This document shows positions 8,939-64,000 of a DNA stretch of 64,000 nt, piece after piece (position 1 is the stretch's first letter; the number at the start of each line of letters is the position of its first letter). The DNA is taken from assembly GCF_900111165.1 (NCBI RefSeq), contig NZ_FOGH01000005.1, positions 47,237 to 111,236 of the forward strand. The letters are read 5' to 3'. Source of the DNA: Nitrosomonas sp. Nm51. GTDB lineage: Bacteria; Pseudomonadota; Gammaproteobacteria; Burkholderiales; Nitrosomonadaceae. A program made the translations under genes and the position numbers. A model generated the notes under the pieces. The model did no database searches, was not told the origin of the DNA, and saw nothing but the letters and a program-made list of their open reading frames with translations.

Positions 8939-9191
8939 CAAAACTCTCTCTTTTGTTTAATAAATTGATCAATTAAATGGTTTGTATTACATCATAACCA
9001 TAATACATGTTGTACGTTCATTAACTGATAGAAGGATAATGAAATTTTTCTACCACACCCGCTATTATAGCCAAGCTGTCTCGTTTAGGTTCTTCTTATC
9101 TTGATTTTTCGATCTTAAAATTATAGCTTTTCAAGTTTTTACACCATCAGTTTTACGCTGCATAGAACGATTTAGGATAGGATTATTTAAT

Positions 9192-10298
9192 ATGTCGGAC
9201 ATGACTGAAATTACGCAGCTGGCCAGGTCATCCATCCAGTTGCCCGTTGAGTGGTATTTCAATCCGAAAATTCTGGAGGCAGAGAAAAAACTTCTGTTTG
9301 ACAACGGGCCTGGCTATGTCGGTCATGAAGTCATGGTACCGGCGGTTGGCGACTATTATGTGCCCGAATGGATGCATCATGCTAAAACGCTGATACGCCA
9401 TCGGGGCGGCATTGATTTGATTTCGAATATCTGCCGTCACCGTCAGGCGCGTATCCTTCAGGGCAGAGGCAATACCAAGCGTATCGTCTGTCCGCTGCAC
9501 CGCTGGACCTACGCTCTGGATGGCCGGTTACTCGGCGCGCCGCACTTTGATCACAACCCCTGTCTGCATCTGGAAAAAACACCGCTACAAACCTGGAATG
9601 GTTTGTTATTCTGCGGCAAGCGCGCGATAGAAAAAGACATGGCAGGCCTCAGTGTACCGCATGACTTTGATTTTTCGAATTATCTGTTTGATAGCGTACG
9701 AATTGATCACTATCACTGCAATTGGAAGACATTTATTGAAGTGTATCTGGAAGATTACCATGTCGATCCTTTTCACCCGGGGCTAGGTAATTTCGTCAAC
9801 ACCGCTGATCTTGTCTGGGAATTTGGAGACTGGTACAGCGCGCAAACGGTAGGCGTCAACAGCGGTCACCTGAAACGTTCGGGCACCCCCGTATATGAAA
9901 AATGGCAACAGCAGGTTCTGGCGCACTATGAAGACAAGTTACCGCGTCATGGCGCAATATGGATGTTGTATTATCCGAATATCATGCTGGAATGGTACCC
10001 GCATACGCTCGTTATCAGCACCATTGTACCCATCGGCGTGGAACACTGTGTTAACGTTGTTGAATTTTATTACCCAGAGGAAATCGTGCTTTTCGAACGT
10101 GAATTTGTCGAGGCCGAACAGGCCGCTTACATGGAAACCGCCGCGGAAGATGAAGAAATATGCATGCGCATGAACGACGGCCGCCGTGCATTGTATGAGC
10201 AGTCTGCCAACCAAACAGGTCCTTACCAGATGCCCATGGAAGCCGGCATGGTTCATTTCCATCAGTTTCTGCGACGTGAAGTAGCGCCGTTTTTATAA
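9192..10298 (+). CDS. Rieske non-haem iron oxygenase, alpha-subunit type
   Basis: Likely an oxygenase that hydroxylates or dealkylates a small organic substrate. Both metal sites of the family are visible: a Rieske [2Fe-2S] site with Cys81-x-His83 (CRHRQ) and Cys100-x2-His103 (CPLH), and a mononuclear iron site with His190 and His195 in EDYHVDPFHPG, with Asp188 just upstream as expected for electron transfer between centres. At 368 residues it is full length. No reductase or ferredoxin gene is next to it, so the electron donor is encoded elsewhere and the substrate cannot be told. AGGATAGGA precedes the ATG. A MITE-like repeat begins 27 bp beyond the stop codon. Confidence 0.88.
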   Translation: MSDMTEITQLARSSIQLPVEWYFNPKILEAEKKLLFDNGPGYVGHEVMVPAVGDYYVPEWMHHAKTLIRHRGGIDLISNICRHRQARILQGRGNTKRIVCPLHRWTYALDGRLLGAPHFDHNPCLHLEKTPLQTWNGLLFCGKRAIEKDMAGLSVPHDFDFSNYLFDSVRIDHYHCNWKTFIEVYLEDYHVDPFHPGLGNFVNTADLVWEFGDWYSAQTVGVNSGHLKRSGTPVYEKWQQQVLAHYEDKLPRHGAIWMLYYPNIMLEWYPHTLVISTIVPIGVEHCVNVVEFYYPEEIVLFEREFVEAEQAAYMETAAEDEEICMRMNDGRRALYEQSANQTGPYQMPMEAGMVHFHQFLRREVAPFL

Positions 10299-10325
10299 AC
10301 GCGCATAAACATACTCCTATCACTC

Positions 10326-10470
10326 AAGGGCATCTCTAAAAATCCAGACTTTGTTACAATACTGCATTGTTCACAAAAAATATTTCCTTACATATAAATT
10401 ATATGCTGCGTTAACATTTTTTGCTTTCGCCTTGTCTTGTTTAAAACTCCGGATTTTTAGAGGTACCCTT
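10326..10470. mobile_element. MITE-like 145-bp element with terminal inverted repeats
   Basis: Left end 10326-10347 (AAGGGCATCTCTAAAAATCC...) and right end 10449-10470 form a 22-bp inverted repeat; the right arm read in reverse is AAGGGTACCTCTAAAAATCC..., with three mismatches. The 100-bp interior is AT-rich with no real gene. The shape (short, non-coding, TIR-bounded) is that of a miniature inverted-repeat element mobilised by a transposase elsewhere. No clear target duplication is visible. From memory, similar termini recur in Nitrosomonas genomes; I could not check this. The right end stops 5 bp before the start codon of the next gene. Confidence 0.7.
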
Positions 10471-10475
10471 AAGCT

Positions 10476-11333
10476 ATGCGCTCTTTCTGGATGCTGGTGG
10501 CCGCCTTTTTATTTGCCTGTATGGGTGTTCTGGTCAAACTCGGCGCAGGTCATTTTACCAGTATCGAGCTGGTGTTTTATCGCTCCCTGATGGGCGTGGG
10601 AATTACTTACTTGTTTATACGCCATCATCGCCTCACACTCAAAACCGGATACTGGAAAACACATTGCTGCAGGAGTCTGGCCGGCCTTGGCAGCCTGCTG
10701 ATGTTTTTTTACTGCGTTACCGAACTGCCACTGGCCACCGCCATTTCACTCAATTATACCTGGCCGTTGTTCATGGCATTGTTTTCTACGCTCATCCTAC
10801 GGGAACAATTACACTGGCCAATGGTTCTTGCGGTCGCACTGGGATTTGTCGGTGTCGTATTCCTGTTGCGTCCCACACTAAACAATGATCACTGGACGGC
10901 CGCGTCGCTCGGCCTGGCGTCCGGCTTCTTCGCTGCGATCGCCTATATGAATGTCAGGCAACTTGGTAATCTGGGCGAGTCGGAATGGCGGATCGTGTTT
11001 TACTTCACCCTGATCAGTACATTGATCACCGGCGTATGGCTGGCGCTCACCACATTCAACCCGGTTACACAACAGAATATGTATCTGCTGATCGGTATCG
11101 GTATCACCGCCACACTGGCGCAGCTGGCCATGACACGCGCCTACCGCACCGGCACAACGCTGGTTGTCAGTTCGCTGGGTTATAGCACTGTCCTGTTTGC
11201 AGGCATGTGGGGCATACTGGTCTGGAATGAATTATTGCCGCCCATCGCCTGGCTGGGCATGGTACTGGTGATAGCAGGCGGCACCCTAAGTGGTATTTTA
11301 GGGCATAAAATAGCACTGAAAACACGAAGCTAA
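10476..11333 (+). CDS. EamA/DMT-family permease
   Basis: Inner-membrane transporter of the drug/metabolite superfamily. The 285-residue protein has about ten hydrophobic helices arranged as two EamA repeats. The first begins FWMLVAAFLFACMGVLVKLG and the second near residue 145 (ASLGLASGFFAAIAYMNVRQ), which is the usual length and design. The substrate is unknown; relatives export amino acids, nucleosides or other metabolites. The start ATG lies immediately beyond the right end of the MITE-like repeat. The only upstream purine-rich motif (AGAGG) is inside that repeat, so the element now supplies the translation-initiation region. No operon partner on this strand. Confidence 0.9.
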   Translation: MRSFWMLVAAFLFACMGVLVKLGAGHFTSIELVFYRSLMGVGITYLFIRHHRLTLKTGYWKTHCCRSLAGLGSLLMFFYCVTELPLATAISLNYTWPLFMALFSTLILREQLHWPMVLAVALGFVGVVFLLRPTLNNDHWTAASLGLASGFFAAIAYMNVRQLGNLGESEWRIVFYFTLISTLITGVWLALTTFNPVTQQNMYLLIGIGITATLAQLAMTRAYRTGTTLVVSSLGYSTVLFAGMWGILVWNELLPPIAWLGMVLVIAGGTLSGILGHKIALKTRS

Positions 11334-47592: not shown

Positions 47593-48747
47593 ATGAGTCA
47601 GCCCGCAAAACAGTCTGCTTCTGACGCATTGACAGTGCGCCCGGTTATGTCATATCGGGATATGGGTGATTTTATCAATACACCCTGGCTGATTTATACC
47701 GACGATCCGGCGTGGGTACCGCCTTTGCGTCTGGAGCGACGCTTTCACTTTTCCAAACACAATCCTTTTCTGCAACATGGCGAATGGCAAGCCTGGGTTG
47801 CTTATCAGCATCATCGTCCGGCAGGCAGAATCAGCGCGCAGATCGATACGCTGCATCGGCAGCGCTATGGCGGCGACACCGGGCATTTCGGGCTGCTTGA
47901 ATGTGTTAACGATAACGATGTCTTTACAGCGCTCATGCTGCATGCAGAAACCTGGCTGGCTGCACGGCACACACGCCATGTAACAGGGCCGTTCAATTTA
48001 TCAATCAACCAGGAATGCGGTATTCTGGTAAATGGTTATGATACGCCGCCATCCGTGATGATGCCGCATACCGCGCGCTGGTATCCACAGCTGCTTGAAT
48101 CATATGGTTATTTCCATGCCAAAGATTTACTGGCTTACAAGATAGCGGTCGATTTTGATCCGCCTTCGGTCATGCGGCAATTAATCAAACGCCATGCCGG
48201 TCAAATTCGAGTCAGATCCTTAAACCGCAAACAGCTTGCCGCTGAAATGGAGGTGCTGCGGGATATTTTTAACGATGCATGGGCTGAAAACTGGGGATTT
48301 GTGCCGTTTACCGAGGCAGAGTTCGCCGACCTGGGTAACAGTCTCAAATACCTGGTTTCCGACGAGTATATTCAGATTGCGGAAGTCGGCGGCCGGCCTG
48401 CCGCATTTATGGCCGCTTTACCCAACCTGAATGAAGTACTTGCGGAACTCAACGGGCGCTTGTTCCCGCTTGGCTGGCTGAAGCTGATCAAAAAGCTCAA
48501 ACGACATGAAATCAGAACGGCGCGCATACCCCTTATGGGCGTACGCAGACAGTATCATAATACCACGCTGGGAATGGCACTTGCCTGCACCGTTATTGAA
48601 GCGCCCAGAAAGATCGGCATTGCACACGGTATACGTGAAGTTGAACTGTCCTGGATACTGGAAGACAACAAGTCGATGCGCAGCATCCTGAAAAATATTG
48701 GCAGCACGGAGTATAAACGTTACCGCATATACAAAAAAACACTGTGA
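47593..48747 (+). CDS. GNAT-superfamily acyltransferase, YghO-like (candidate ceramide synthase)
   Basis: 384-residue protein resembling E. coli YghO: LIYTDDPAWVPPLRLERRFH and FSKHNPFLQHGEWQAWVAY near the N-terminus, FNLSINQECGILVNGYDTPP in the middle, and an acyl-CoA N-acyltransferase-type C-terminal half (YIQIAEVGGRPAAFMAALPN, then ELSWILEDNKSMRSILKNIG, the usual last helix). The family assignment is from pattern memory. Bacterial ceramide synthase of Caulobacter (bCerS) is described as belonging to this superfamily, and the downstream genes look like lipid head-group enzymes. N-acylation of a sphingoid base is therefore a reasonable inference, not shown. The stop overlaps the start of the next gene (GTGA). 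Confidence 0.75.
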   Translation: MSQPAKQSASDALTVRPVMSYRDMGDFINTPWLIYTDDPAWVPPLRLERRFHFSKHNPFLQHGEWQAWVAYQHHRPAGRISAQIDTLHRQRYGGDTGHFGLLECVNDNDVFTALMLHAETWLAARHTRHVTGPFNLSINQECGILVNGYDTPPSVMMPHTARWYPQLLESYGYFHAKDLLAYKIAVDFDPPSVMRQLIKRHAGQIRVRSLNRKQLAAEMEVLRDIFNDAWAENWGFVPFTEAEFADLGNSLKYLVSDEYIQIAEVGGRPAAFMAALPNLNEVLAELNGRLFPLGWLKLIKKLKRHEIRTARIPLMGVRRQYHNTTLGMALACTVIEAPRKIGIAHGIREVELSWILEDNKSMRSILKNIGSTEYKRYRIYKKTL

Positions 48748-49586
48748 CTAATCTACACAACCCTGTACAACAGAAATTTGCCGCGCTGGTACTCGCAGCT
48801 GACCGAACGGCGGATGATCCAATCACCCGGTATACGGGCGCGGCTTGCAAAGCTTTCGCACCCGTCGGCGGCGAACCGATGATAATCCGTGTACTGGACG
48901 CACTCGCCGCCAGCAACCTGATTGAAACTACCGTTTTATGCGGGCCACCCAAATCCAGACTGGATCACTGTTCTCTCTTGAAGGCACGAATAAAATCGGG
49001 CGAAGTCACCTGGCTGCCCAATAAAGAATCGCCAAGCCGCAGCGCAGAATATGGGTTCGAACATTTGCCAGCCAACATCCCGGTGCTGCTGACAACTGCC
49101 GACCATGCATTGCTTACCCCTCAAATTGTTCAGTATTTCTTGACGGAGTCACTTAAAGTCGATAGCGATGCGACAGTCGGCTTGGTCAAACAAACACAGA
49201 TGACCGCAGCATTCCCCGAAAATAAACGTACATTCTTTCGTTTGCGTGATGGTAGTGTATGTGGCTGTAATTTGTTCACGTTTAAACCACACGGACGCAA
49301 ACTTGCCGCGTTCTGGCGCTCCGTAGAAAACCTGCGCAAACATCCCTGGCGTTTGATCGCACACTTTGTAGGGCCCGGCATTATCCTGTCCTATTTATTC
49401 AGACGCCTTTCCCTGGATCAGGCATTGAATACCTTAGCCGACAAATCAGGCGTATGTGTCAAACCCATCATGCTGCAGGATGCTCGCGCGGGTATCGATG
49501 TCGATAACGTTGAGGATTTATTACAGGCCGAATCCATACTCAACAAAACCGCCATCCCATTTTACAGACGCAACAAAATGCCCTGA
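48744..49586 (+). CDS. MobA-like NTP transferase domain protein
   Basis: 280-residue nucleotidyltransferase of the MobA/IspD-like fold. The N-terminal strand FAALVLAADRTADDPITRY holds the nucleotide-binding loop in altered form; the usual LAGGxSxRMG is replaced by LAADRTADDP. The conserved Lys region is KAFAPVGGEPMIIRVLDAL. TTADHALLTPQI carries the metal-binding Asp (TxADHxLL instead of the usual DxP). These changes suggest activation of an unusual substrate: a head-group alcohol phosphate is possible given the neighbours. It starts with GTG overlapping the acyltransferase stop by 4 bp. Relatives make GDP- or CDP-linked sugars or polyols. Confidence 0.78.
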   Translation: MTNLHNPVQQKFAALVLAADRTADDPITRYTGAACKAFAPVGGEPMIIRVLDALAASNLIETTVLCGPPKSRLDHCSLLKARIKSGEVTWLPNKESPSRSAEYGFEHLPANIPVLLTTADHALLTPQIVQYFLTESLKVDSDATVGLVKQTQMTAAFPENKRTFFRLRDGSVCGCNLFTFKPHGRKLAAFWRSVENLRKHPWRLIAHFVGPGIILSYLFRRLSLDQALNTLADKSGVCVKPIMLQDARAGIDVDNVEDLLQAESILNKTAIPFYRRNKMP

Positions 49587-49644
49587 TCTGTCTTCATGGT
49601 TTTATCGCAATGAGGTCTCACTCGATTTCTGATAGGATTGCTGC

Positions 49645-50721
49645 ATGAAAATAATCGAGCGACATATCATACGGGAAGTGGCGGTTCCATTTTTTGTCGT
49701 CATTCTGATTCTCGTCGGCTTATTTGCAAGTTTTAGCAGCGCACGCTTTCTGGCCGGTTCTGTCACTGAAATACTGGGACTCGGCGCACTCCTAATGCTG
49801 GTAATGCTCAAGACGCTGATCGCGCTGGAAGTATTGATTCCGGTAGCGTTGTATGTTGCGATCATCAGCGGCCTGGGCAGACTGCATAAAGACCAGGAAT
49901 TAAACGTGCTGCATTCCAGCGGCATCAGCGGCAAGCGCATCGTTTATATCGTACTGATGGTAGCGGTTCCAATCGGCATTATCAGTGGCCTTCTCTCATC
50001 ATATGTCCGCCCCTGGGCCTATGCTGAAAGCTATTTACTGGATGCACAGGCAGAAGCGGAACTCAACACCAACCGTTTTCAGGCAGGGCGTTTTTACGGC
50101 AGCGATCGCAGCGGCAGAGTCGTCTATGTTCATAGTAAAGATGAAGCCAGCAAATCAATGAACCAAATATTTCACTATATCAACACACCCGATGCGCGTG
50201 AAATCATTATTGCCAAAAAAGCCACGCAAATACAACCCGCCACACAGTCGGAACGACCTAACATACAATTAAATGACGGCTATATTTATCAATTGACCCA
50301 TGACGTGTCCCGGGATGACACAATTGAATTTGAAAAACTGACATATTTTATAGACAGTGAACTGGCATTGCGACACCGCCGTAAAGCTACGCCGACCAGA
50401 ACACTCTGGAAATCCGAGGAACCCTGGGAAATTGCCGAATTACAATGGCGTTTGTCTCGACCGCTTTCCACTATTTTAATGGCGCTAATTGCAGTAGCGT
50501 TTATTCAAACTGCACCGCGGCAGGATAAGGCAACCAAAACCTATTTACTTGCGGCTATTGTGTTTGCCGTATATTACAATTTAAGTGGCCTGGCGAAAAA
50601 CTGGGTTGAACAAAACGTAATTGGCACAACGCCGGGAATTTGGTGGCTTTATGCTGGCATGTGCATACTGCTGCTTTTGTATGCATTAAAGCCCGGTCAG
50701 AAATTGTTATCACTCCGTTAA
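49645..50721 (+). CDS. lptF: LptF-type permease subunit (YjgP/YjgQ family)
   Basis: 358-residue inner-membrane subunit of an LptBFG-type exporter. Transmembrane helices occur at about residues 15-35, 60-80 and 100-120. A periplasmic beta-jellyroll domain follows (about 125-265; RFYGSDRSGRVVYVHSKDEA), and three further helices occupy the C-terminal part. LHKDQELNVLHSSGISGKRI is the conserved cytoplasmic coupling helix for LptB. In most Gram-negatives lptFG sit next to pepA; here they are embedded among lipid-synthesis genes, so they may be a paralogous pair for another lipid. TAATG overlap with lptG. Confidence 0.92.
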   Translation: MKIIERHIIREVAVPFFVVILILVGLFASFSSARFLAGSVTEILGLGALLMLVMLKTLIALEVLIPVALYVAIISGLGRLHKDQELNVLHSSGISGKRIVYIVLMVAVPIGIISGLLSSYVRPWAYAESYLLDAQAEAELNTNRFQAGRFYGSDRSGRVVYVHSKDEASKSMNQIFHYINTPDAREIIIAKKATQIQPATQSERPNIQLNDGYIYQLTHDVSRDDTIEFEKLTYFIDSELALRHRRKATPTRTLWKSEEPWEIAELQWRLSRPLSTILMALIAVAFIQTAPRQDKATKTYLLAAIVFAVYYNLSGLAKNWVEQNVIGTTPGIWWLYAGMCILLLLYALKPGQKLLSLR

Positions 50722-51782
50722 TGCTTATTTTTCGCTATATTACTTTTCAGGTATTCATTGGTCTGATAATCGCCACAGCCGTTTTACTGCCCTTGTTCAG
50801 CTTCTTTGACCTGCTGGATCAGCTAGACGATGTCGGCAAAGGCACATACCGTACCATTGATGCATTCATGTATACCTCAATGCTACTGCCACGCCGGTTT
50901 ATTCAAATTGCACCGTTTATCGCGTTATTGGGAACGGTTGCGGCACTGGGCGCACTGGCGGTGAATTCCGAACTCATTGCCATGCGCAGCGTCGGAATTT
51001 CACCGCTGCAAATCAGCATGGCGCCGCTTGCTGTAGGTATTGCCCTGACAGTATTTATCGCCGGACTTGAACAGTTTGTCGCACCGCAACTGCAACAAAA
51101 AGCTATTTCCAACCGTGCCGTAGCATTGAATCAAACCGCTGAACTCGGCAAAGGCCTAGGGATATGGACGCGTAACGAGCGGAATATTCTGCGTATTGGG
51201 CAGATGTTGCACGCTAAAAAAGCCGCGGATGTTGAAATCCTGAATTTTGATCAGGCGAATCTTTTGCAGGCGCATATCCATGCTGAATTTGCTGAAATAC
51301 ACAGTAATAAAGCCTGGATTCTGACCAATGTCGTCATCAGAAAATTCACCGGATCACAGATTCTGTTGAGCCGCGCCGAAACACTGAGCTGGCAATCATT
51401 CTTGAAGCCCGAAGATATTGCGACACTTACCAAGCCGCCGGAAAGCCTCTCCCCCATTGAACTTGTACGGCATGTAGACTTTCTGCGCAGCACCGGTCAG
51501 GATGCGGATTCGTATGCGCTTGCTCTATGGCGTAAAGCAGGCAGTGCTTTACTGACAATTGCCATGCTGCTGCTGTCCATTCCGTTTATATTTGGTTCAA
51601 TTCGCTCAGGCCTGGCCAATAAACTGGTACTGGCCGCATTGATTGGTGTTGCAGTTTACCTGCTTGATCAGATTTTTGCCAACGCCGGTCTATTACTGCA
51701 TCTGAAGCCCGCTTTCGCGGCGCTTGCACCCAGTGTGCTATTAATTATGCTGGCAATTTTGTGGCTGCGAAGAGTTTTTTAA
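50721..51782 (+). CDS. lptG: LptG-type permease subunit
   Basis: 353-residue partner of LptF. The open frame extends into lptF, but the ATG at 50721 overlaps the lptF stop codon (TAATG) and gives the usual N-terminus (MLIFRYITFQVFIGLI). Family segments are FFDLLDQLDDVGKGTY, RFIQIAPFIALLGTVAALGA (conserved helix), NSELIAMRSVGISPLQISMA (LptB coupling helix) and a C-terminal helix pair. The predicted role is extraction of a lipid from the inner membrane. LPS is the known substrate of LptFG; the genomic context leaves open an alternative, such as an anionic sphingolipid. Confidence 0.92.
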   Translation: MLIFRYITFQVFIGLIIATAVLLPLFSFFDLLDQLDDVGKGTYRTIDAFMYTSMLLPRRFIQIAPFIALLGTVAALGALAVNSELIAMRSVGISPLQISMAPLAVGIALTVFIAGLEQFVAPQLQQKAISNRAVALNQTAELGKGLGIWTRNERNILRIGQMLHAKKAADVEILNFDQANLLQAHIHAEFAEIHSNKAWILTNVVIRKFTGSQILLSRAETLSWQSFLKPEDIATLTKPPESLSPIELVRHVDFLRSTGQDADSYALALWRKAGSALLTIAMLLLSIPFIFGSIRSGLANKLVLAALIGVAVYLLDQIFANAGLLLHLKPAFAALAPSVLLIMLAILWLRRVF

Positions 51783-51911
51783 ATACCTGTTGTTATAATA
51801 GGCTGAAACAAAGCAAATCAGACGGCTCGTCGGATAATCCCACCTGTTGAGCACCGGGTATGCTGCTGAGACCGTTTGCTATAAAACAAAAATTCATTGA
51901 ATTCACAATCT

Positions 51912-53147
51912 ATGCAAAAAACAACTTATATCCTTATTATCGGTGGAAACAGAACTACCATATGGGGACTGGATGGCCACGAACGACTTGAACGCATGAT
52001 ACAGTCAATTAAGAATGTAAAATTGACTGAAAAAACGGACGATATACCAGACAACGCTCCCCTGCTTATTCTGAACGCTCATTATCTATTTGACAGCAGA
52101 GTGCTGACAGCATTAATCGCGTTGAAAGACCCCATGGTATTGTACAGTCATGACAATCAACCCGCTGCCGTCCGTACATTTGGCGGCCAGGCGTCTCACT
52201 TGCTGGGCGTGCTGGTAAAACCAAAAAACCAAAGGCCGGAGCATATTTTATCAGGGTTGCCGCGTTATACACTCAGCGAACTCAACATCGATTTTCAACA
52301 AAACCTGAAAAAAAAGGACCCACCTTATATTCTGCCAATTACGGAAGACAACCGCAAACGACTAGAGAAAGAATTGTTTTCAGGCTCCTATAAGGGCGTT
52401 ACCGATCTGGTAACGAAGTGGCTGTGGCCGCTACCCGCCTTTTGGTGCACACATCTTTGCGTACGCAAAGGCTGGAAACCCAATCATGTCACACTGCTGA
52501 GCGCCGTTCTGGCATTGTTGGCCGGCATCGCATTCTGGTACGGTTTTTTTGCGATCGGTCTGATCATGGGCTGGATGATGACTTTCCTGGACACCGTTGA
52601 CGGCAAATTAGCAAGGGTAACCGTAACGTCGAGTAAATTCGGTGACGTACTCGACCATGGGCTCGATATTATTCACCCGCCGCTCTGGTATCTGGCCTGG
52701 GGCATTGGTCTGGCAGGCACACTGACACCGATTGGCAACCTCGATCTATTGATCTGGCTGATGTTTTTCGGTTACATTGGCGGCCGCCTGTGCGAAGGCG
52801 CTTTCCAATTATGGCTCGCGCCTTTCGACATGTTTATCTGGCGCAAGGCGGATTCATTCAACCGGTTGATCACCGCCCGGCGCAACCCCAACTTGATTCT
52901 GCTGACCTATGGATGGATTATCGAACGGCCGGATGTTGGCTTGCTTCTTGTTGTTGCCTGGCATTTGTTGTCGACGGCTATCCTTTTGGGACGGCTGATC
53001 GCAGGATGGCGTATCTGGCGTCAACAAGGAAAGCTGCGTTCCTGGTTGCAGGATATAGATCCTGCACGTGACCGCAACATACTGGCGGTAAAAATATTCA
53101 CACGCGCGCCAATCGACCCCAAACGCCTGCAACCCGCCAAGTTTTAA
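51912..53147 (+). CDS. CDP-alcohol phosphatidyltransferase with extra N-terminal domain
   Basis: 411 residues from the ATG at 51912 (a TTG five codons earlier is possible). The C-terminal half has about six helices and the complete CDP-alcohol phosphotransferase motif DxxDGxxAR(x8)GxxxDxxxD, seen as DTVDGKLARVTVTSSKFGDV then LDHGLD. It should transfer an alcohol-phosphate between a CDP-lipid and an alcohol. Residues 1-150 form a soluble alpha/beta domain (ILIIGGNRTTIWGLDGHERL) with remnants of a nucleotidyltransferase fold but without its GGxGxR loop. Archaeal inositol-phosphate enzymes fuse a cytidylyltransferase to the same transferase, so the N-terminal part may be a degenerate version. 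The kinase gene follows after 18 bp. Confidence 0.85.
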   Translation: MQKTTYILIIGGNRTTIWGLDGHERLERMIQSIKNVKLTEKTDDIPDNAPLLILNAHYLFDSRVLTALIALKDPMVLYSHDNQPAAVRTFGGQASHLLGVLVKPKNQRPEHILSGLPRYTLSELNIDFQQNLKKKDPPYILPITEDNRKRLEKELFSGSYKGVTDLVTKWLWPLPAFWCTHLCVRKGWKPNHVTLLSAVLALLAGIAFWYGFFAIGLIMGWMMTFLDTVDGKLARVTVTSSKFGDVLDHGLDIIHPPLWYLAWGIGLAGTLTPIGNLDLLIWLMFFGYIGGRLCEGAFQLWLAPFDMFIWRKADSFNRLITARRNPNLILLTYGWIIERPDVGLLLVVAWHLLSTAILLGRLIAGWRIWRQQGKLRSWLQDIDPARDRNILAVKIFTRAPIDPKRLQPAKF

Positions 53148-53165
53148 CAGCTTACCAGCTCCTGC

Positions 53166-54155
53166 ATGGCTGCCAAATCTCCAATAAACGCGACGTCGAA
53201 AAAAATTGGCCTGCTGCTAAACCCGATGAGCGGCCAGGTACGTAAGCGCGAACGGGCCATCCGGAATGCACTTAAGCAGATACCGGATGCAATACTATGC
53301 GAAGCAACCGACGCGACTGGATTTATTACAGCAACCGACACGTTGATTCAGGCCAAGATAGGCCTGCTGGTCATTGTTGCCGGAGACGGCACTTCACATG
53401 CCGTACTCAGTTATTTGTTCACAACCCTGCCGGTAACACGATGGCCTGTTTTAATGATAATTCCGGGAGGTACCACCAACATGACGCCTCTTGATCTGGG
53501 CATGCGGGGCAAACCGGAAAAAATTCTGCAACGTCTGGCACAGTATTTACAACATGCTGACGGCTGCAATACGGTTAAGCAGGTTCAGCGGTCTGCCTTA
53601 TGCATCGAACAAAATGGGCGGCAAACTATCTACGGCATGTTTTTTGCCGCAGGACTGGTTGCGCGCGGCGTCAAATTTTCGCGCAGCAGCGTCAAACAAA
53701 TCGGCATCACCGGCGGCATTTTCACCTTCCTGATCATGCTGCGTTCGCTGATTGGTCTGATTTTCAGCCACCAAAACAAACAATGGGCGCCTGTAACTAT
53801 GTCCATACTCAAAGAAAACGGCGAGTCATTTCAAGGCACCTATCTTTTCACACTGGTCAGCGCACTCGATTGTCTGCTGTTAAACATGCGTCCATTCTGG
53901 GGCCATGAACCGGCACCGCTTCATATCACATGGGTCGACCAGCAACATAAACATCTCTGGCGCTCCTTATGGCCGCTGCTAAAGGGTAAAGCTGAGCGAC
54001 TCAAGGCGCAGGACGGCTACCACAGTCACAACAGCCATAAGTTAACGATTCAAATGAATGACGAATATATCGTCGATGGCGAGTTATATCACTCGCCAGG
54101 CGGCGCCCCTTTACGTATCACCGCCACAGCCCCCGTCACTTTTCTTGTACTCTGA
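53166..54155 (+). CDS. Diacylglycerol/sphingosine-kinase-family lipid kinase
   Basis: 329-residue lipid kinase of the DAGK catalytic-domain superfamily (PF00781). The N-terminal strand GLLLNPMSGQVRKRE, the nucleotide motif LVIVAGDGTSHAVLSYLF with the GDG signature near residue 79, and IIPGGTTNMTPLDLG are intact. The C-terminal beta-sandwich ends in the typical VDGELYHSPGG (usual: GE, then DGE). Members phosphorylate diacylglycerol, ceramide or sphingoid bases. In Caulobacter the ceramide kinase CpgB belongs to this superfamily. Placed between a CDP-alcohol transferase and a Tam41-like gene, it would provide the phosphate that is then activated by CTP. Confidence 0.88.
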   Translation: MAAKSPINATSKKIGLLLNPMSGQVRKRERAIRNALKQIPDAILCEATDATGFITATDTLIQAKIGLLVIVAGDGTSHAVLSYLFTTLPVTRWPVLMIIPGGTTNMTPLDLGMRGKPEKILQRLAQYLQHADGCNTVKQVQRSALCIEQNGRQTIYGMFFAAGLVARGVKFSRSSVKQIGITGGIFTFLIMLRSLIGLIFSHQNKQWAPVTMSILKENGESFQGTYLFTLVSALDCLLLNMRPFWGHEPAPLHITWVDQQHKHLWRSLWPLLKGKAERLKAQDGYHSHNSHKLTIQMNDEYIVDGELYHSPGGAPLRITATAPVTFLVL

Positions 54156-54172
54156 TTATCTATTTACCAAAA

Positions 54173-55141
54173 ATGACCGATCCCGAATCGACCTCACCGC
54201 TGCCCGAAAAACTGCTCAGCACTGTTGCCACACAATGCACTCGCAGTGTCGCCGTTGACTATGCAGTCTTCGCCGACGCTTTGCTGGAACGTTTCAAAAC
54301 GGCTACCGATGCAATTATTCTGTACGGATCGTGCTTGCGTAGCGGCAATCTCGACGAAGGCATTGCCGATCTCTACGTACTGGTCGATAATTATAAAAAT
54401 GCGTACACCCAACGTTATCTTGGCCTGCTGAATGCCTGGCTGGCACCGAATGTATTTTATCTTGAAGTCTTGTATCAGGGAAAAACACTGCGTGCCAAGT
54501 ACGCGGTGATTTCTACTGCTGATTTTGAAAAAGGTGCCCGATTCTGGTTTCATTCTTATATCTGGGCACGTTTTGCGCAGCCATCGCGATTACTTTATGT
54601 ACGCGACGATGCAATCCGGCAACGAGCATATCAAGCATTTGCCTATTCGGTGCTAGCGTTTCTGCGATCGGGCGTATGCGCACTGGAAAATAAGGCTTTC
54701 ACAGTCGAAACACTTTGGACCCGCTGCCTGATGCTCAGCTACGCCGCCGAATTGCGGCCGGAAAACGAAACCCGTGCGCGGCATCTGGCAACCACGAACC
54801 TTATCGATTTTAAGCAATTGACGCAGGCCGCCTACCCTGCGCTAACCAACCTGCTCAGCTATCAGCCGGACAACGATACCTATTTGTGCCAAAATACGCC
54901 ACATACACGCCGACGTGCATTACGGCACTGGATGCTGCGTCGCTGGCAGGGACGCGTTCTGTCAATCTTGCGTCTGTCAAAAGCTACACTGACGTTCAGG
55001 GACTGCCTGGATTATGCCGCCTGGAAAATCCAGCGGCATACCGGCGTACAACTTGAAATCACACCGTGGTTACGGCGGCACCCGATTATCTGGGGCTTTG
55101 TGGTCATATGGCAGGTACTGCGTAAAGGGGCCATACGCTGA
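54173..55141 (+). CDS. Tam41/MMP37-like phosphatidate cytidylyltransferase homologue
   Basis: 322-residue soluble protein with a nucleotidyltransferase (pol-beta-like) start: AIILYGSCLRSGNLDEGIAD, with the GS motif then Asp-Leu-Tyr where Tam41 has Asp-Phe/Ile. It continues with LNAWLAPNVFYLEVLYQG, then LRAKYAVISTADFEKG and YIWARFAQPSRLLYV. These correspond closely to Tam41's A-x-VYYN, KYGVIS and L-x-I-A-G-R-x-x-KPV segments. Mitochondrial Tam41 makes CDP-diacylglycerol from phosphatidate and CTP and is unrelated to bacterial CdsA. The remaining half is helical. Eighteen bases after the lipid kinase, it probably activates that kinase's product. Assignment is by motif recall and needs a structure-based check. 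Confidence 0.7.
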   Translation: MTDPESTSPLPEKLLSTVATQCTRSVAVDYAVFADALLERFKTATDAIILYGSCLRSGNLDEGIADLYVLVDNYKNAYTQRYLGLLNAWLAPNVFYLEVLYQGKTLRAKYAVISTADFEKGARFWFHSYIWARFAQPSRLLYVRDDAIRQRAYQAFAYSVLAFLRSGVCALENKAFTVETLWTRCLMLSYAAELRPENETRARHLATTNLIDFKQLTQAAYPALTNLLSYQPDNDTYLCQNTPHTRRRALRHWMLRRWQGRVLSILRLSKATLTFRDCLDYAAWKIQRHTGVQLEITPWLRRHPIIWGFVVIWQVLRKGAIR

Positions 55142-55186
55142 ATAGCGTTACATCATCCAAACAATCACAGAACAATGGGGGGAACC

Positions 55187-55831
55187 ATGAACTCAAAAAC
55201 GCTGTTATCCGCATTTATTTTTCTTCTTGTGTTTGGCGCTTGTTCAACCATGTACTACGAAGGCCTAGAGAAAATCGGCATCCCCAAACGGGACGTTATG
55301 GTTTACCGGGTGGAACAGGCACGCGACACGCAGGAGGAAACCAAAGAACAATTCAAATCAGCCCTTGCCCAGTTCACCGCAGCCACCCGTTTCAGTGGCG
55401 GCGACCTGGAAGCAATTTATACCAAACTTAACGACGAATACGAAGCCAGTGTCAGTAAAGCTGAAGAGGTCAGAAGCCGCATTGAAGATATCGAAGATGT
55501 CTCGCAGGCACTATTTGCCGAGTGGGAACAGGAAATCGCCCAGTACAGCAACGTCAATCTGAAACGCAGCAGTCAGGAGAAACTGAGCACCACAAAAACA
55601 CACTACCGGCAGCTCATCGCATCAATGAAAAAGGCCGAAGCCAAGATCCAGCCGATACTGACCGTTTTCAGGGACCAGGTGATGTTTCTCAAACACAACC
55701 TGAACGCTCGCGCAATCGCGTCGTTAAAAAGCGAACTCGGCAGTATTGAATCGGATGTCACCGTGTTAATCGCCTCCATGGAAGAGTCAATCAATGAAGC
55801 CAATGCGTTTATTAACACCATGGAAAAATGA
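55187..55831 (+). CDS. DUF2959 lipoprotein
   Basis: 214 residues from the ATG at 55187, which is preceded by GGGGGA; the frame opens four codons earlier. Signal peptide with lipobox FGAC (Cys about residue 18), so a lipoprotein. The mature part is helical and charged: YYEGLEKIGIPKRDVMVYRV, ARDTQEETKEQFKSALAQF and a long coiled coil to the end (EESINEANAFINTMEK), matching DUF2959 (from memory). Function unknown. As the last gene of the lipid cluster, a periplasmic role in lipid handling is possible but unproven. Confidence 0.8.
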   Translation: MNSKTLLSAFIFLLVFGACSTMYYEGLEKIGIPKRDVMVYRVEQARDTQEETKEQFKSALAQFTAATRFSGGDLEAIYTKLNDEYEASVSKAEEVRSRIEDIEDVSQALFAEWEQEIAQYSNVNLKRSSQEKLSTTKTHYRQLIASMKKAEAKIQPILTVFRDQVMFLKHNLNARAIASLKSELGSIESDVTVLIASMEESINEANAFINTMEK

Positions 55832-55945: not shown

Positions 55946-57700
55946 TTAAGCTGCTCGTTGTTGAGTATCATCGCTTGGAAGTCTGGTACTGGAGTGTTCC
56001 GATGCCGGCAATACTGAAACCAAAGCAGACTCACGCGATTCACATTTTAATTTAAAGCGTGCGATTGTTTGAACCAACTGAGCAGCCTGATCCTCCAGGT
56101 TTTCGGCAGCAGCCGCGGTCTGTTCGACTAATGCGGAATTTGTTTGAGTTGATTCATCAATCTGTGTAATCGCCAGGTTTACTTGCGAAATGCCACTTTG
56201 CTGTTCACTGGTGGCATGATCGATTTTTTTCATAAGATCAGACACATGACGGATTGAATTAACAATTTCTTTCATTGTGTTACGCGCCTGATCGACTTGC
56301 ACCGAGCCCTGCTCGACTCGTTCAACGCTGACGGTAATCAACCTTTTGATTTCTTTCGCAGCGCCTGCACTATGCTGCGCCAAATTACGTACTTCACTGG
56401 CTACCACTGCAAAGCCGCGACCTTGTTCACCGGCACGCGCCGCTTCAACAGCGGCATTTAATGCCAAGATGTTGGTTTGAAAGGCAATACTATCGATCAC
56501 ATTGATGATGTCTGTTATTTTCTGTGACGATTCGCTGATATTCTGCATGGTATTAACAACTTGACCGACGGCTTCGCCGCCTTCGATCGCAATTTTGCTG
56601 GCCTTTGTCGCTAATTGGCTGACATTGCGCACACTATCGGCATTCTGATCCAGACTTGAACTAAATTCTTCCATAGACGCCGCCATTTCTTCCAAAGCAC
56701 TAGCCTGCAGTTCGTTACGCTGACTCAAATCCAGATTACTGTGTGCAATTTGCTTACTGACTGCCGCCACGCTATCGGCATTGCCACGTATCGCTCCAAT
56801 GATATTAGCCAGCTTGGTTTGCATGTCATTCATCATTTTTAGTAGTTTACCTTCTTCACTACGATCAGGCGCATCAACAGGGCGGCTTAAATCACCATCC
56901 GCAATTCGCATACCGATAGCACCTACTTTTACAAACAATTTTGACGTTCTATGCTGAACAAAAAATAATGTCAATAGAACAAATACTACCGCCAAACCTG
57001 TCGCAAATGTCGCCACGCCCAACCACTGCTCGCGGGTCGCCTTCACTGCTGCGAGTTCCTGTGCAGTTCGCTCGTCAAGCATGACAAAAAACTCATCAAT
57101 AAATTTCATAATATCGGCTTTGTTTTGATGATAAGTTAAATCGTGCATCATCTCCCGCGCCTTTTCCATATCTGGCTCGGCTGTCTGCGTAAAATTACCT
57201 TGACTGTCGACATATAGTCCTTTAACCATATTCATTGCGATGGTTTCAGTTCGCACCAAGTTATCTGAGTTTGCCTGCGCTTCAGCAAGCTTGTCCAATT
57301 CAGCCTCAGAAAAACCCATCTGTTCCATCAAATCTAAAAGTGCGACAGTTTCACCATCAGACCGTATTGAATCCATACCGGCAGCACGAAAATCCCAATA
57401 AATACGCTCATAATTTTTTGGTCTCGCTTGCTTTCCGTTACGAATATTCAGAATTTCTAAATATTGATCTTCCCATTTTGTCTCACCACTAACGACGTAA
57501 GTCCGTGCAAGACGCGTCAAATCATCAGAGCTTTGTCGTAATTCGTCAGCCAACAAATAAGACTGATAACGGCGATTAGCCGCTTCATCGGACAATCGGC
57601 TATAGTACAAACTCATGATCGAACTGCCGATTGTTACTACAGCCAACAATATAATGATGATACCGACAATAATATAAGTTTTTTTCAAACTCCAATTCAT
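55946..57700 (-). CDS. Methyl-accepting chemotaxis protein
   Basis: 584-residue transmembrane chemoreceptor. The start ATG at 57700 has AGGTG just upstream; the frame opens 22 codons earlier. TM1 is at about residues 8-30 (IIVGIIIILLAVVTIGSSIM). A periplasmic, helical sensor domain follows (YVVSGETKWEDQYLEI and a long helix pair), then TM2 near 230 (VATFATGLAVVFVLLTLFFV), HAMP (MRIADGDLSRPVDAPD), and a signalling domain with the conserved hairpin tip ILALNAAVEAARAGEQGRGF. The NWETF-type C-terminal pentapeptide is absent. No che genes adjoin it, and the ligand is unknown. Confidence 0.95.
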   Translation of the reverse strand: MNWSLKKTYIIVGIIIILLAVVTIGSSIMSLYYSRLSDEAANRRYQSYLLADELRQSSDDLTRLARTYVVSGETKWEDQYLEILNIRNGKQARPKNYERIYWDFRAAGMDSIRSDGETVALLDLMEQMGFSEAELDKLAEAQANSDNLVRTETIAMNMVKGLYVDSQGNFTQTAEPDMEKAREMMHDLTYHQNKADIMKFIDEFFVMLDERTAQELAAVKATREQWLGVATFATGLAVVFVLLTLFFVQHRTSKLFVKVGAIGMRIADGDLSRPVDAPDRSEEGKLLKMMNDMQTKLANIIGAIRGNADSVAAVSKQIAHSNLDLSQRNELQASALEEMAASMEEFSSSLDQNADSVRNVSQLATKASKIAIEGGEAVGQVVNTMQNISESSQKITDIINVIDSIAFQTNILALNAAVEAARAGEQGRGFAVVASEVRNLAQHSAGAAKEIKRLITVSVERVEQGSVQVDQARNTMKEIVNSIRHVSDLMKKIDHATSEQQSGISQVNLAITQIDESTQTNSALVEQTAAAAENLEDQAAQLVQTIARFKLKCESRESALVSVLPASEHSSTRLPSDDTQQRAA

Positions 57701-57962
57701 TTTTTTCACCTGATAGTTGTAAAATATTAGCGGTAATGAAAAAAAATGTGACTCATAACACAACATCGATACATCAGTATGTTATAAATGATTGCACTTT
57801 TTAAACAGTTAGTTGTATTAAGTCTTACTTTCTTCATTTAAAATCATAGCAATAACTCGAAGTGATACATTTAATAAATACCAACTGTTTTACAATCTTT
57901 ATCATTCAATGCACATAAATCCACAACATTCTCCAAACTTCGCTTCGCTCTTGAATAGCTTA
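57701..57962. other. AT-rich leader region of the chemoreceptor gene
   Basis: Non-coding, strongly AT-rich. It probably holds the chemoreceptor promoter. No repeat or RNA gene stands out. The IS remnant begins at its right end. Confidence 0.4.
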
Positions 57963-59249: not shown

Positions 59250-61073
59250 TTGAGTTCGACAATAGCCAAGTTGAACGCTCCGCTAACGCAAGCGTTTGAT
59301 TTTCAGCCTTCAAGCGAATTAAAAATAACACCAACACCGACACGCAATATACTTGCGCAGCAACTGGCGGGGTTTGATACCCTGACAAATGCGCTAGAGT
59401 ATGCTGCTCAGGGAATAACAGGATATAACTTTTATAACGCGAAGGGTCATTTACATTCAGTTTTACCTTATAAACTACTCAGAAATAACGCACACTCACT
59501 TGCTCAACGATTAGCTGGCTTCAATTTGGCGCGCGGTAGTCGAGTTGCCATAATAGCCGACACATCTCCCGAGTTCATCGAGTTGTTTTTTGCATGTCGT
59601 TATGCTGGATTAATTCCTTTTGCAATGCCTGTCCCGGTTAATTTAGGTAGTCACGGAATCTATGTACAGCAATTAAGAGGAATGCTTGAAAGTAGTCAAG
59701 CAAGCATAGCGTTTGCCAATCTGGATTACGTCAATTTTCTTGAAGAAGCCACAAAGGAATTAATAAATTTGCATTGGGTGGGAACACCTGCACAACTTAA
59801 GGAATTACCCGCAAAAGAGGTTATGCTGCAGCCCAATGCCCCGAGCGAAGTAGCCTATCTGCAGTTTACATCAGGAAGCACGCGCACACCAAGAGGCGTT
59901 GTAATAACTGAACGTGCTCTCATGTGTAACCTGCAAGGCATTGTTCGTAATGGTTTGGAAATTAAGCCTGATGATCGATCTGCATCATGGCTGCCTTTTT
60001 ACCATGACATGGGGTTAGTCGGTTTGGTCTTGGCCCCAATGGTTACGCAGCTTTCGGTTGACTACCTAGCCACACGGGATTTTGCTATACGTCCTTTGCA
60101 GTGGCTGCGGCTTATCAGTCGCAATCGCTGCACAGTTGCCTTTAGTCAGCCTTTCGGGCTCAAGTTGTGTACAATGCGCGTCCGCGAATCTGATTTGAAT
60201 GAACTTGATCTCAGTTGTTGGCGTGCTGCCGGTATAGGTGCAGAAATGATCCGCCCGGAGACTTTAAGGAATTTTGCAGAAAAATTTTCTTCAGCGGGTT
60301 TTGATGACAGTGCTTTTTTACCTTGTTATGGACTCGCCGAATCAACACTTGCAGTTACTTTCTCAAAAATTAGTAAAGGATTCCACAGCATACAGGTTGA
60401 CAGCAAAACGCTCGTTGACAAAAGAATAGCCACTACATTACGCGCTGAAGGCCGAAAATATAATGAATTTGTCAATTGTGGACGTCCGCTTCCCGGACAC
60501 ACAGTTAAGATTGTTGACGAAACCGGGCAACAATTGGATGACAATATGGTTGGCAGTGTTCTTGTCCATGGTGCAAGCATAATGACAGGTTATTACAACA
60601 ATCCAGAAGAAACACGGAAAGCACTTAAGCCTGATAATTGGCTCGATACAGGCGACATTGGTTTTCTGTATGATGGAGACTTGTATATTACAGGCCGTCG
60701 AACAGATGTGATTATTGTCAATGGACGCAATATCCGGGCGCAGGATATTGAAGAACTAGCAGAACAACAACCTGAAATCAGATCAAGAGAAGCATCAGCA
60801 TTCGGGATCAATGATGCAGATGGTGCAACAGTCATTGTATTGGTTATCGAGTGCCGACTGATTTCAACAGCAGAACGCCACTCATTGATCAAACGACTGC
60901 AGCAACTGGTTTATATGGCCTTTGGTGTTAACTGTGTTGTAGAACTGGTACCTCCACATACTTTGCCCAGAACATCTTCTGGCAAATTATCACGTTTTGC
61001 GGCCCGCCAAGGATATATTCAGCGCACGAACCTGGAAGAGCAACTGTCTGTGGCCGAATCCGGAGATCGCTAG
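59250..61073 (+). CDS. Fatty acyl-AMP ligase (acyl-ACP synthetase, AasR-like)
   Basis: 607-residue adenylate-forming enzyme that activates a fatty acid as acyl-AMP and hands it to an acyl carrier protein. Start TTG at 59250 is supported by GAGGGGA about seven bases upstream. Motifs are FTSGSTRTPRGVV (P-loop A3, near residue 206), PFYHDMGLVGLVL (typical of fatty acyl-AMP ligases), YGLAESTLAVTF (A5) and WLDTGDIGFLYDGDLYITGR (A7/A8). The C-terminal lysine region ends TSSGKLSRFAAR. An ACP gene two genes downstream supports loading of ACP rather than CoA. In Caulobacter the equivalent gene of the ceramide cluster is aasR. Confidence 0.92.
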   Translation: MSSTIAKLNAPLTQAFDFQPSSELKITPTPTRNILAQQLAGFDTLTNALEYAAQGITGYNFYNAKGHLHSVLPYKLLRNNAHSLAQRLAGFNLARGSRVAIIADTSPEFIELFFACRYAGLIPFAMPVPVNLGSHGIYVQQLRGMLESSQASIAFANLDYVNFLEEATKELINLHWVGTPAQLKELPAKEVMLQPNAPSEVAYLQFTSGSTRTPRGVVITERALMCNLQGIVRNGLEIKPDDRSASWLPFYHDMGLVGLVLAPMVTQLSVDYLATRDFAIRPLQWLRLISRNRCTVAFSQPFGLKLCTMRVRESDLNELDLSCWRAAGIGAEMIRPETLRNFAEKFSSAGFDDSAFLPCYGLAESTLAVTFSKISKGFHSIQVDSKTLVDKRIATTLRAEGRKYNEFVNCGRPLPGHTVKIVDETGQQLDDNMVGSVLVHGASIMTGYYNNPEETRKALKPDNWLDTGDIGFLYDGDLYITGRRTDVIIVNGRNIRAQDIEELAEQQPEIRSREASAFGINDADGATVIVLVIECRLISTAERHSLIKRLQQLVYMAFGVNCVVELVPPHTLPRTSSGKLSRFAARQGYIQRTNLEEQLSVAESGDR

Positions 61074-61078
61074 CCTAT

Positions 61079-61990
61079 ATGCAAAAATTGGTAGCAGTAA
61101 CGGGTGCTACTGGTTTTATTGGTAATCGGTTGATTAGCAAGCTTGTCAATGAAGGCTGGCAAATTATAGCGCTTTCTCGAAGTAAACGTAATAATACAAA
61201 ATCCATACAATGGGTGCATGGAGATTTAAATAATCGCACTGCATTAGCTGAACTAACGCAAGATGCATCAGCAGTTATTCATTGTGCAGGCGCAGTGAGG
61301 GGGTGTTCTTTTGATGATTTCGTTCATACGAATGTAACCGGCACAAAGAACCTGCTTGATATTGTTATCCAACATAACAACCACCCTCGTTTTCTACTTA
61401 TTTCTTCATTAGCTGCCAGACAGCCAGAGTTATCCTGGTATTCCAAAAGCAAAATTCTTGCTGAGCAAGAAGTAATCAGTAACTCTGCCAGCTTAGCCTG
61501 GACCATTTTTCGGCCCACTGCCGTCTACGGTCCTGGCGATAAAGAACTCAAACCGCTGTTTAAGGCGACCCGTAATGGTCTGCTTCCCGTAGTGGGGAAA
61601 TTAAATAATCGGTTTGGGTTGATACATGTGGATGATCTAATTCGGGCAATTCAATTATGGCTCGATTCTGAAAAACCGTGTAACGGCATTTTTGAATTAG
61701 ATGACGGCACACCCAATGGTTACAGTTTTGAATCTCTGGCAAATTTGGCACAAGAAGTTTGGAAAAGACCAGTTCGATGTATAATGATTCCTCATTTTTT
61801 GATTCAAAACATCGCCGTGTTGAATCTGTGGCTGGCACGTTTGTTACGTTATTCTCCAATGTTGACACCTGGGAAAGTAAATGAGCTCCAGCATCATGAC
61901 TGGGTATGTGATAACAAGCCTCTTATTCGCGCATTGCCTGGCTGGCAACCTAGTATACATTTATATGAATCGTTACCTCGAATAGTGTAG
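61079..61990 (+). CDS. NAD-dependent epimerase/dehydratase (CerR-like)
   Basis: 303-residue short-chain dehydrogenase of the extended type. Rossmann motif VTGATGFIGNRL (Gly9, Gly12, Gly15) and catalytic Tyr121-x3-Lys125 in WYSKSK are present. HVDDLIRAIQLWL is the usual extended-SDR segment. In the Caulobacter ceramide cluster a homologue, CerR, reduces the 3-oxo group of the ceramide intermediate; the position here between the acyl-AMP ligase (5 bp before it) and the ACP gene is the same as I remember there. Classical sugar epimerase activity is the alternative, but nothing sugar-related is nearby. Confidence 0.85.
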   Translation: MQKLVAVTGATGFIGNRLISKLVNEGWQIIALSRSKRNNTKSIQWVHGDLNNRTALAELTQDASAVIHCAGAVRGCSFDDFVHTNVTGTKNLLDIVIQHNNHPRFLLISSLAARQPELSWYSKSKILAEQEVISNSASLAWTIFRPTAVYGPGDKELKPLFKATRNGLLPVVGKLNNRFGLIHVDDLIRAIQLWLDSEKPCNGIFELDDGTPNGYSFESLANLAQEVWKRPVRCIMIPHFLIQNIAVLNLWLARLLRYSPMLTPGKVNELQHHDWVCDNKPLIRALPGWQPSIHLYESLPRIV

Positions 61991-63629: not shown

Positions 63630-64000
63630 ATGCCTGCCAAGAAATATATTGTCCGCTTGAGTAAAGAAGAATGCGAAACACTCACCAAATTGGTAAGAAC
63701 AGGAAAAGTTGCTGCTTACAAACGGCAACGGGCACAAATTTTGTTAAAAGCGAATGTAAATCGCTTTGACGGCGGCCTGCATGACAAAGAAATAGCAAAA
63801 TCACTTGATGTTGGCAGGCGGACAATAGAGCGGGTCCGGCAACGACTGGTTGAGAAAGGTTTTCATAAAGTTCTGGAAAGGGAACCTCGCAAGCGCTCAA
63901 GAGCGCCACGTCTTGATGGTGAACAGGAAGCGCACCTGGTGGCATTGAGCTGCTCGGAACCACCTAATGGGCGCAACCGTTGGACACTGAAGTTATTGGC
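63630..64000 (+). CDS. IS630-family transposase, N-terminal part
   Basis: Starts at the ATG at 63630 (GAGGTG about seven bases upstream) and runs off the right edge: 123 codons seen. The start YIVRLSKEECETLTKLVRTG and a helix-turn-helix (HDKEIAKSLDVGRRTIERVR), followed by VEKGFHKVLEREPRKRSRAP, are typical of IS630 transposases. The DDE residues would lie beyond the window. The frame is intact so far. With the IS remnants at 57966-58937 it brackets the sphingolipid operon. The left terminal repeat should lie in 63480-63629, but I cannot define it without the other end. Confidence 0.88.
   Translation, partial: MPAKKYIVRLSKEECETLTKLVRTGKVAAYKRQRAQILLKANVNRFDGGLHDKEIAKSLDVGRRTIERVRQRLVEKGFHKVLEREPRKRSRAPRLDGEQEAHLVALSCSEPPNGRNRWTLKLL

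Follow-up and report, generated by a model that had tools for sequence, protein, structure and literature searches.

A Nitrosomonas gene block as the probable counterpart of the Caulobacter ceramide-phosphoglycerate cluster, with evidence on the roles of its enzymes

The window analyzed here is a stretch of 64,000 nucleotides from Nitrosomonas sp. Nm51, in which an eight-gene block at 47593..55831 is probably the Nitrosomonas counterpart of the Caulobacter cluster for ceramide phosphoglycerate (CPG) and ceramide diphosphoglycerate (CPG2). In this counterpart the kinase CpgB likely makes ceramide-1-phosphate, the Tam41-like protein CpgC is predicted to convert this with CTP into CDP-ceramide, and CpgA most likely adds the second phosphoglycerate from CDP-glycerate supplied by an unlinked CpgD-like enzyme. 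The locus is real, conserved and known in kind, and the new evidence concerns which enzyme performs which step; the reactions in Nitrosomonas sp. Nm51 are inferred from gene content and order, genome profiles, a gene fusion and predicted folds. Conservation was followed in 80 loci retrieved with CpgC as query, nearly all titled Nitrosomonadaceae; contig ends truncate many of them. The eight genes, each with the number of these loci in which it was found, are as follows.

47593..48747, + strand: bacterial ceramide synthase CerS, CC_1154 type; 43% identity to the gene in the cerS position of region L193; 64 loci
48744..49586, + strand: NTP_transf_3 nucleotidyltransferase, CC_1153 type; PF12804 at 49.5 bits; 33% identity to the L193 counterpart; 60 loci
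49645..50721, + strand: LptF permease; PF03739; TIGR04407 at 305.8 bits (cut-off 230); 67 loci
50721..51782, + strand: LptG permease; PF03739; TIGR04408 at 319.1 bits (cut-off 240), scored from a longer open reading frame at 50640; 69 loci
51897..53147, + strand: CpgA, CDP-alcohol phosphotransferase with an N-terminal cytidylyltransferase-like domain; CDP-OH_P_transf; complete CDP-alcohol phosphotransferase (CDP-AP) motif; 67 loci
53166..54155, + strand: CpgB, DAGK-fold lipid kinase, likely ceramide kinase; DAGK_cat PF00781 at 49.9 bits; GDGT, PGGTTN and DGE motifs; 79 loci
54173..55141, + strand: CpgC, Tam41-like nucleotidyltransferase, predicted CTP:ceramide-1-phosphate cytidylyltransferase; Tam41_Mmp37 at 26.7 bits (cut-off 24); 80 loci (query)
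55175..55831, + strand: DUF2959 lipoprotein; PF11172 at 277.7 bits; 55 loci

All eight are real genes, lying on one strand in the order first described, with gaps of -4, 58, -1, 114, 18, 17 and 33 bases; the LptG start was taken as the ATG sharing one base with the LptF stop. Pfam bears out every label given in the initial annotation except that of a GNAT-type acyltransferase, as the 47593..48747 product matched no Pfam or NCBIfam family; its ceramide-synthase position stands through its identity to the L193 gene. The closest named CpgC matches are from Nitrosomonas, including N. marina at 83%.

Caulobacter crescentus makes CPG and CPG2 with genes of CC_1168-CC_1152 (PMC11324152), and this cluster (cpgA-D, cerS, aasR, cerR, acpR, spt, lptF2/G2) has the ceramide genes, CpgA, CpgB, CpgC, the CC_1153-type enzyme and LptF/LptG in common with the window genome. 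CpgD is present in both, but here it lies on another contig (C82). Region L193 has the Caulobacter CPG gene order, and the ends of CCNA_01210 encoded by published primers (PMC12275187) agree with its CpgD; read against this region, the block carries cerS, the CC_1153 type, LptF, LptG, CpgA, CpgB and CpgC. Unlike the Caulobacter cluster, the window has a different order, with one eight-gene block and the ceramide operon set apart behind a chemoreceptor gene. This orthology supports the proposal that an anionic-sphingolipid locus is present. The belief that such a pathway was undescribed has to be given up, as the gene set is that of Caulobacter CPG/CPG2, N. eutropha orthologues are in print, and NDP-activated ceramide made by CC_1161 (CpgC) was already suggested in 2024 (PMC11324152). 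In Figure 7 of that paper, N. eutropha, a member of the same genus, has orthologues of 13 or more of the 17 genes in the cluster, spread over three regions, and the paper describes it as without a CC_1158-type phosphoesterase; in its loci L073 and L074 the genes stand in the same order as in the block of the window. In contrast to those three regions, the window holds the block and the Spt operon 3.4 kb apart, with a transposase-like gene adjoining.

The occurrence of CpgC was compared with that of Spt, CpgA and CpgD in a phylum sample of 398 Pseudomonadota genomes scored for all four. CpgC is present in 27 genomes and Spt over cut-off in 36 (37 at E 1e-100), with Spt over cut-off in 26 of the 27 CpgC genomes versus 10 of the 371 without CpgC (Fisher p 1.6e-31, uncorrected for kinship). 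The 27th genome, G345, carries an Spt/BioF-like synthase in the spt slot (L168:11138-12346) which has a better score with BioF (340 bits) than with Spt models and is below all cut-offs; the sphingoid base of this genome may differ. The expected co-occurrence with Spt is thus seen, and the block is not common among the 398 genomes where Spt is lacking. This distribution bears on whether CpgC might instead be a further CDP-diacylglycerol synthase, using phosphatidic acid to feed glycerolipids and linked to the ceramide genes only indirectly. The solved Tam41 enzymes that CpgC resembles do make CDP-diacylglycerol, and the Pfam family bears the name phosphatidate cytidylyltransferase; however, this is quite unlikely in view of the Spt counts, of the fusion or adjacency of CpgC to a kinase orthologous to ceramide kinase, and of the need for the CpgC orthologue in Caulobacter CPG formation (PMC12275187, PMC11324152).

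A panel of 46 genomes, comprising the 27 CpgC-bearing genomes, 10 Spt-only genomes and 9 more without CpgA in the block, was used to place the remaining enzymes. The CC_1153-type nucleotidyltransferase is present in all 36 CpgC genomes of the panel and in none of the Spt-only genomes, and a marginal match (42 bits) was seen in one of 80 other genomes, taken in handle order from the remaining 361. Its gene adjoins cerS, as in L193. The scheme first proposed left this MobA-like protein without a role, yet its profile makes it a candidate helper in the first-glycerate step. The genes thereby fall into two modules, one of CpgB (by adjacency), CpgC and the CC_1153-type enzyme, the other of CpgA and CpgD.

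The second module is tightly defined. CpgA occurs in 10 of the 398 genomes, all CpgC-bearing, and CpgD at E 1e-30 in 18, of which the 10 at 242-414 bits are exactly the CpgA genomes; the other eight matches, at 108-156 bits, include no CpgC or Spt genome. Within the panel both are found in the same 11 genomes. On the CpgC tree the shared state changes nine times at best, at least seven of them on starred branches, and the correlation rests on seven independent pairs (p 0.016). Of the 27 CpgC genomes in the phylum sample, 17 gave no CpgA match, and loci L054, L060, L071, L072, L075, L080, L082, L089 and L090 keep CpgB and CpgC with no CpgA between LptG and CpgB. Among the nine further genomes lacking CpgA in the block, eight showed neither CpgA nor CpgD; the exception, G403 (the genome of N. 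briensis locus L080), carries both genes on a contig separate from the block's, with about 4 kb between them. Other Nitrosospira loci (L078, L079, L088) have CpgA within the block. Three CpgA-like proteins are encoded in G008, two of them within region L180 (11513-12631 and 16127-17338).

The CDP-AP motif of CpgA, DxxDGxxAR(8)GxxxDxxxD, is complete at residues 232-257 and is also found in 67 of the 80 loci. The predicted model (pLDDT 81.1) matches AF2299 and PIP synthases over nearly its full length, N-terminal cytidylyltransferase-like domain included, and is closest to AF2299 (4o6n, E 1.3e-11); motif and N-terminal domain alike are common to CpgA and the AF2299, PIP synthase and IPCT-DIPPS enzymes (PDB 4o6n, 5d92, 4mnd). 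PIP-synthase-like enzymes use CDP-lipids. This resemblance, the adjoining positions of CpgA, CpgB and CpgC in the window and the frequency of CpgA in the related loci would all suit a linear route, as in the initial annotation, in which the Tam41-like protein makes CDP-ceramide and CpgA swaps CMP for the head group. Such a route is nevertheless very improbable: CpgA was not found in most CpgC genomes, as detailed above, CpgD occurs wherever CpgA does, and Caulobacter forms CPG without CpgA, needing it only for the second phosphoglycerate (PMC12275187, PMC11324152). Unlike AF2299, the PIP synthases and IPCT-DIPPS, CpgA co-occurs with CpgD, and its donor is therefore likely CDP-glycerate. The two-module split agrees with Caulobacter genetics for CpgA-D and contradicts the use of CDP-ceramide by CpgA; its substrate is most likely CDP-glycerate instead.

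The CpgD orthologue of the window genome is unlinked to the block and 44% identical, and it keeps R16, K26, D111 and the two glycerate-contact residues named for CpgD in PMC13228409. At L171:10143-13182 on contig C82, the CpgD-like gene, a fatty-acid desaturase gene (PF00487) and a phosphoglycerate mutase gene stand in a row, the mutase being of the 2,3-bisphosphoglycerate-dependent type (TIGR01258 at 237.6 bits, cut-off 81.7). The same trio is present in G102 (L218), and a mutase is also beside CpgD in G403 (L215); in seven other genomes read around CpgD, tblastn showed neither a desaturase nor a mutase there. As CpgD prefers 2-phosphoglycerate and a dedicated phosphoglycerate source was raised and left open as a possibility (PMC12275187), the mutase is a candidate for such a supplier. 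Relatives of the desaturase (44%) lie inside cerS/CpgC loci L166, L179 and L192; the acyl chain of Caulobacter sphingolipid reportedly receives its hydroxyl group from a protein of the DesA family (PMC11324152).

For CpgC, a Foldseek search places the predicted fold closest to the Tam41 CDP-diacylglycerol synthases (PDB 6ig4, 6ig2, 7ecd). Gly52, Ser53 and Asp66 (G52, S53, D66) are invariant in 20 CpgC sequences with a Tyr at the second place of the usual DxD, giving a GS...D active site with a single conserved acidic residue, as in Tam41, for whose nucleotidyltransferase site a single-acidic-residue rule has been described (PMC11646218). Unlike the Tam41/TAMM41 enzymes, which it resembles in fold and active site, CpgC is found with Spt and a lipid kinase, and its identity to the solved members is only 14-17% over the aligned part. 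CDP-ceramide would be the likeliest product of CpgC. PMC13228409 (2026) calls the CpgC mechanism unidentified, and the literature found by searches on this topic contained no test of the activated-ceramide idea.

CpgB adjoins CpgC in 79 of the 80 related loci and in 25 of 26 CpgC regions from other genomes, which served as a further comparison set. Ceramide phosphorylation is shown for the Caulobacter CpgB only (PMC10331486); from its motifs and its place beside CpgC, the window CpgB is likely a ceramide kinase as well. Kinase and CpgC form one open frame of 664-708 amino acids in 17 of the 80 loci, including L024, L026 and L063 (around 8950-10970). When one fused product served as a protein query, 37 proteins were retrieved, of which 33 measure 651-694 amino acids. 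Their sources name N. ureae, JL21 and Nitrosomonas sp. Nm84, the last with two entries that may be a single gene. Both domains are present at least in part in 36 of the 37, and P0154 is a kinase alone. In the tree, the 17 fused rows fall within one clade of 20 with three changes, a pattern consistent with one fusion and two losses, while P0153 (48% and 52% identical to the window's CpgB and CpgC) may represent a second fusion. In a Nitrosomonas chromosome record, L029 carries CpgC around 10001 with no CpgA or CpgB match upstream.

Several points weigh against these assignments. The Foldseek TM-scores of CpgC against Tam41 are about 0.5; the window CpgC passes the Pfam Tam41 (PF09139) cut-off at 26.7 bits, but only 4 of 20 CpgC members match this family at E 0.01, and weakly; and when run against PDB sequences, CpgC profile A1 reached Tam41 at a poor E of 0.035 while the broader profile A4 gave no Tam41 match. 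The window CpgB shares only 26% identity with the L193 kinase, and L029 and G114 showed no CpgB in the vicinity of CpgC, the adjacency of CpgB being drawn from the CpgC loci and regions, with the genome-wide survey covering CpgC, Spt, CpgA and CpgD. The L063 fused frame keeps an in-frame ATG at the CpgC start (counted by eye), and CpgC may be translated separately within it. As for the profiles, A2, A3 and A5 were partly built from panel genomes and match 7 of 11, 4 of 11 and 8 of 36 positives by construction, and absences in the nine loci-derived panel genomes are less sure because several of these are metagenome assemblies, one of 1.4 Mb. The CC_1153-type genes follow CpgC rather than CpgA/CpgD, and for this reason the Caulobacter CC_1153 deletion, which keeps CPG and loses only CPG2 (PMC11324152), misfits the profile found here. 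Lastly, among the 25 CpgC genomes without CpgA, 16 (11 of 17 in the phylum sample and 5 of 8 others) have only two PF01066 proteins, which from size and score appear to be PgsA and PssA; if CpgC makes CDP-ceramide, a transferase is therefore missing in these genomes. The remaining nine have three to five PF01066 proteins and could hold a dedicated transferase, and five of the 10 Spt-only genomes have two. The first-step transferase may be CpgC itself, a housekeeping enzyme or a member of another family.

These counts also bear on a different view of CpgC, in which it is not a cytidylyltransferase in vivo and attaches glycerate, or glycerate activated with a nucleotide by the CC_1153-type enzyme, directly to ceramide-1-phosphate. 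The presence of that enzyme throughout the CpgC genomes and its absence from the Spt-only ones would be accounted for, as would the genomes with two PF01066 proteins, and PMC11324152 relates earlier work having CpgC attach glycerate. The same paper calls direct attachment energetically not very favorable and reports that the CC_1153 mutant still makes CPG, and CpgC has the predicted fold of the CTP-using Tam41 together with its single-Asp active site; this view of CpgC is unlikely, albeit with a real share of the probability. Returning to activation by CpgC, a wider proposal can be offered tentatively, with confidence just short of evenly balanced: bacteria would make CDP-ceramide through CpgC, in the N. 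ureae group one polypeptide would be both ceramide kinase and CDP-ceramide synthase, and two CTP-driven branches would operate, lipid activation (CpgB, CpgC, CC_1153 type) for the first glycerate and head-group activation (CpgD, CpgA) for the second, the first transfer falling to an enzyme other than a CDP-alcohol transferase or to a borrowed housekeeping enzyme.

The proposed pathway would begin with dihydroceramide built by Spt, AcpR, AasR, CerR and CerS, as indicated by orthology and by genetics in Caulobacter, which CpgB would then phosphorylate, by analogy to the biochemistry of the Caulobacter enzyme. The fold of CpgC, its conserved residues, its fusion to the kinase and its genome profile suggest CMP transfer from CTP onto ceramide-1-phosphate as the next step, after which glycerate would take the place of CMP to yield CPG, possibly with the help of the CC_1153-type nucleotidyltransferase. 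CpgD, whose Caulobacter counterpart has been shown to make CDP-glycerate, would provide the donor from which CpgA would transfer phosphoglycerate to CPG, forming CPG2, and LptF/LptG might carry the lipid outward. Of the route initially drawn, N-acylation and phosphorylation are retained, CTP activation by the Tam41-like protein is probable, Lpt-type export is possible, and head-group transfer from CDP-ceramide by CpgA is dropped.

As to export, the window differs from the Caulobacter cluster in that its LptF and LptG score as lipopolysaccharide-type. Both pass the NCBIfam lipopolysaccharide-export cut-offs, unlike seven of eight Lpt proteins from four other CpgC loci, three of which fall short by less than 15 bits. 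The pair may accordingly be the ordinary lipopolysaccharide exporter rather than a sphingolipid-specific second copy, a possibility on the doubtful side of even, as LptF and LptG lie inside the block in most of the 80 loci, several of them cut by contig ends; it would be compatible with the rest of the CPG/CPG2 assignment.

All five ceramide genes (aasR, cerR, acpR, spt, cerS) are present in the window, four of them in an operon downstream of the block.

55946-57766, opposite strand: chemoreceptor gene, between the block and the Spt operon
59250..61073, + strand: aasR, fatty acyl-AMP ligase; NF006624 at 847.8 bits (cut-off 600)
61079..61990, + strand: cerR, SDR-type reductase; PF01370 at 95.9 bits; order as in L193
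62020..62274, + strand: acpR, dedicated acyl carrier protein; PF00550 at 38.7 bits
62275..63468, + strand: spt, serine palmitoyltransferase; NF047599 at 576.5 bits (cut-off 500)

The position given for this core operon, 3.4 kb downstream, is correct, but it does not form a single operon with the block because the opposite-strand chemoreceptor gene separates them. No spt, aasR or cerR match (E 1e-20) was found near the block in any of the 80 related loci, 64 of which reach at least 6 kb downstream, and in G102, of the same genus, spt and CpgC are about 470 kb apart. The window runs to the contig end, and at 63630-64000, 3' of spt, what looks by eye like the start of an IS630-type transposase gene continues past that end; this gene might explain why the Spt operon is close to the block in this genome only.

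Other genes recur around the block. The DUF2959 gene was seen, among regions of other genomes, only in Nitrosomonas region L175, and a link of this lipoprotein to the sphingolipid pathway is doubtful. In some Nitrosomonas, a TrkA/TrkH-like potassium uptake gene pair (by eye) lies between LptG and CpgA (L024:5807-7620, L026:5590-7610). Frame clusters for DUF2141 (as at L176:11343-11864), a metallophosphoesterase (L185:7098-7982) and FA_hydroxylase (L182:17081-17845) recur in 16, 11 and 8 of the 26 CpgC regions of other genomes, some members perhaps being spurious frames.

The profiles assign the CDP-alcohol transferase to the second step independently of Caulobacter genetics, and the natural kinase-Tam41 fusions provide one test protein for an assay of ceramide to CDP-ceramide conversion. 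The phosphoglycerate mutase beside CpgD is a possible dedicated phosphoglycerate supplier. CPG2 helps Caulobacter live without lipopolysaccharide (PMC12275187). The module split predicts that synthesis would stop at CPG where neither CpgA nor CpgD was found, as in Nitrosospira sp. Nsp2 and Nitrosovibrio sp. Nv4, and that CPG2 would be made by ammonia oxidizers with both CpgA and CpgD, such as N. briensis Nsp8 and the genome studied here.

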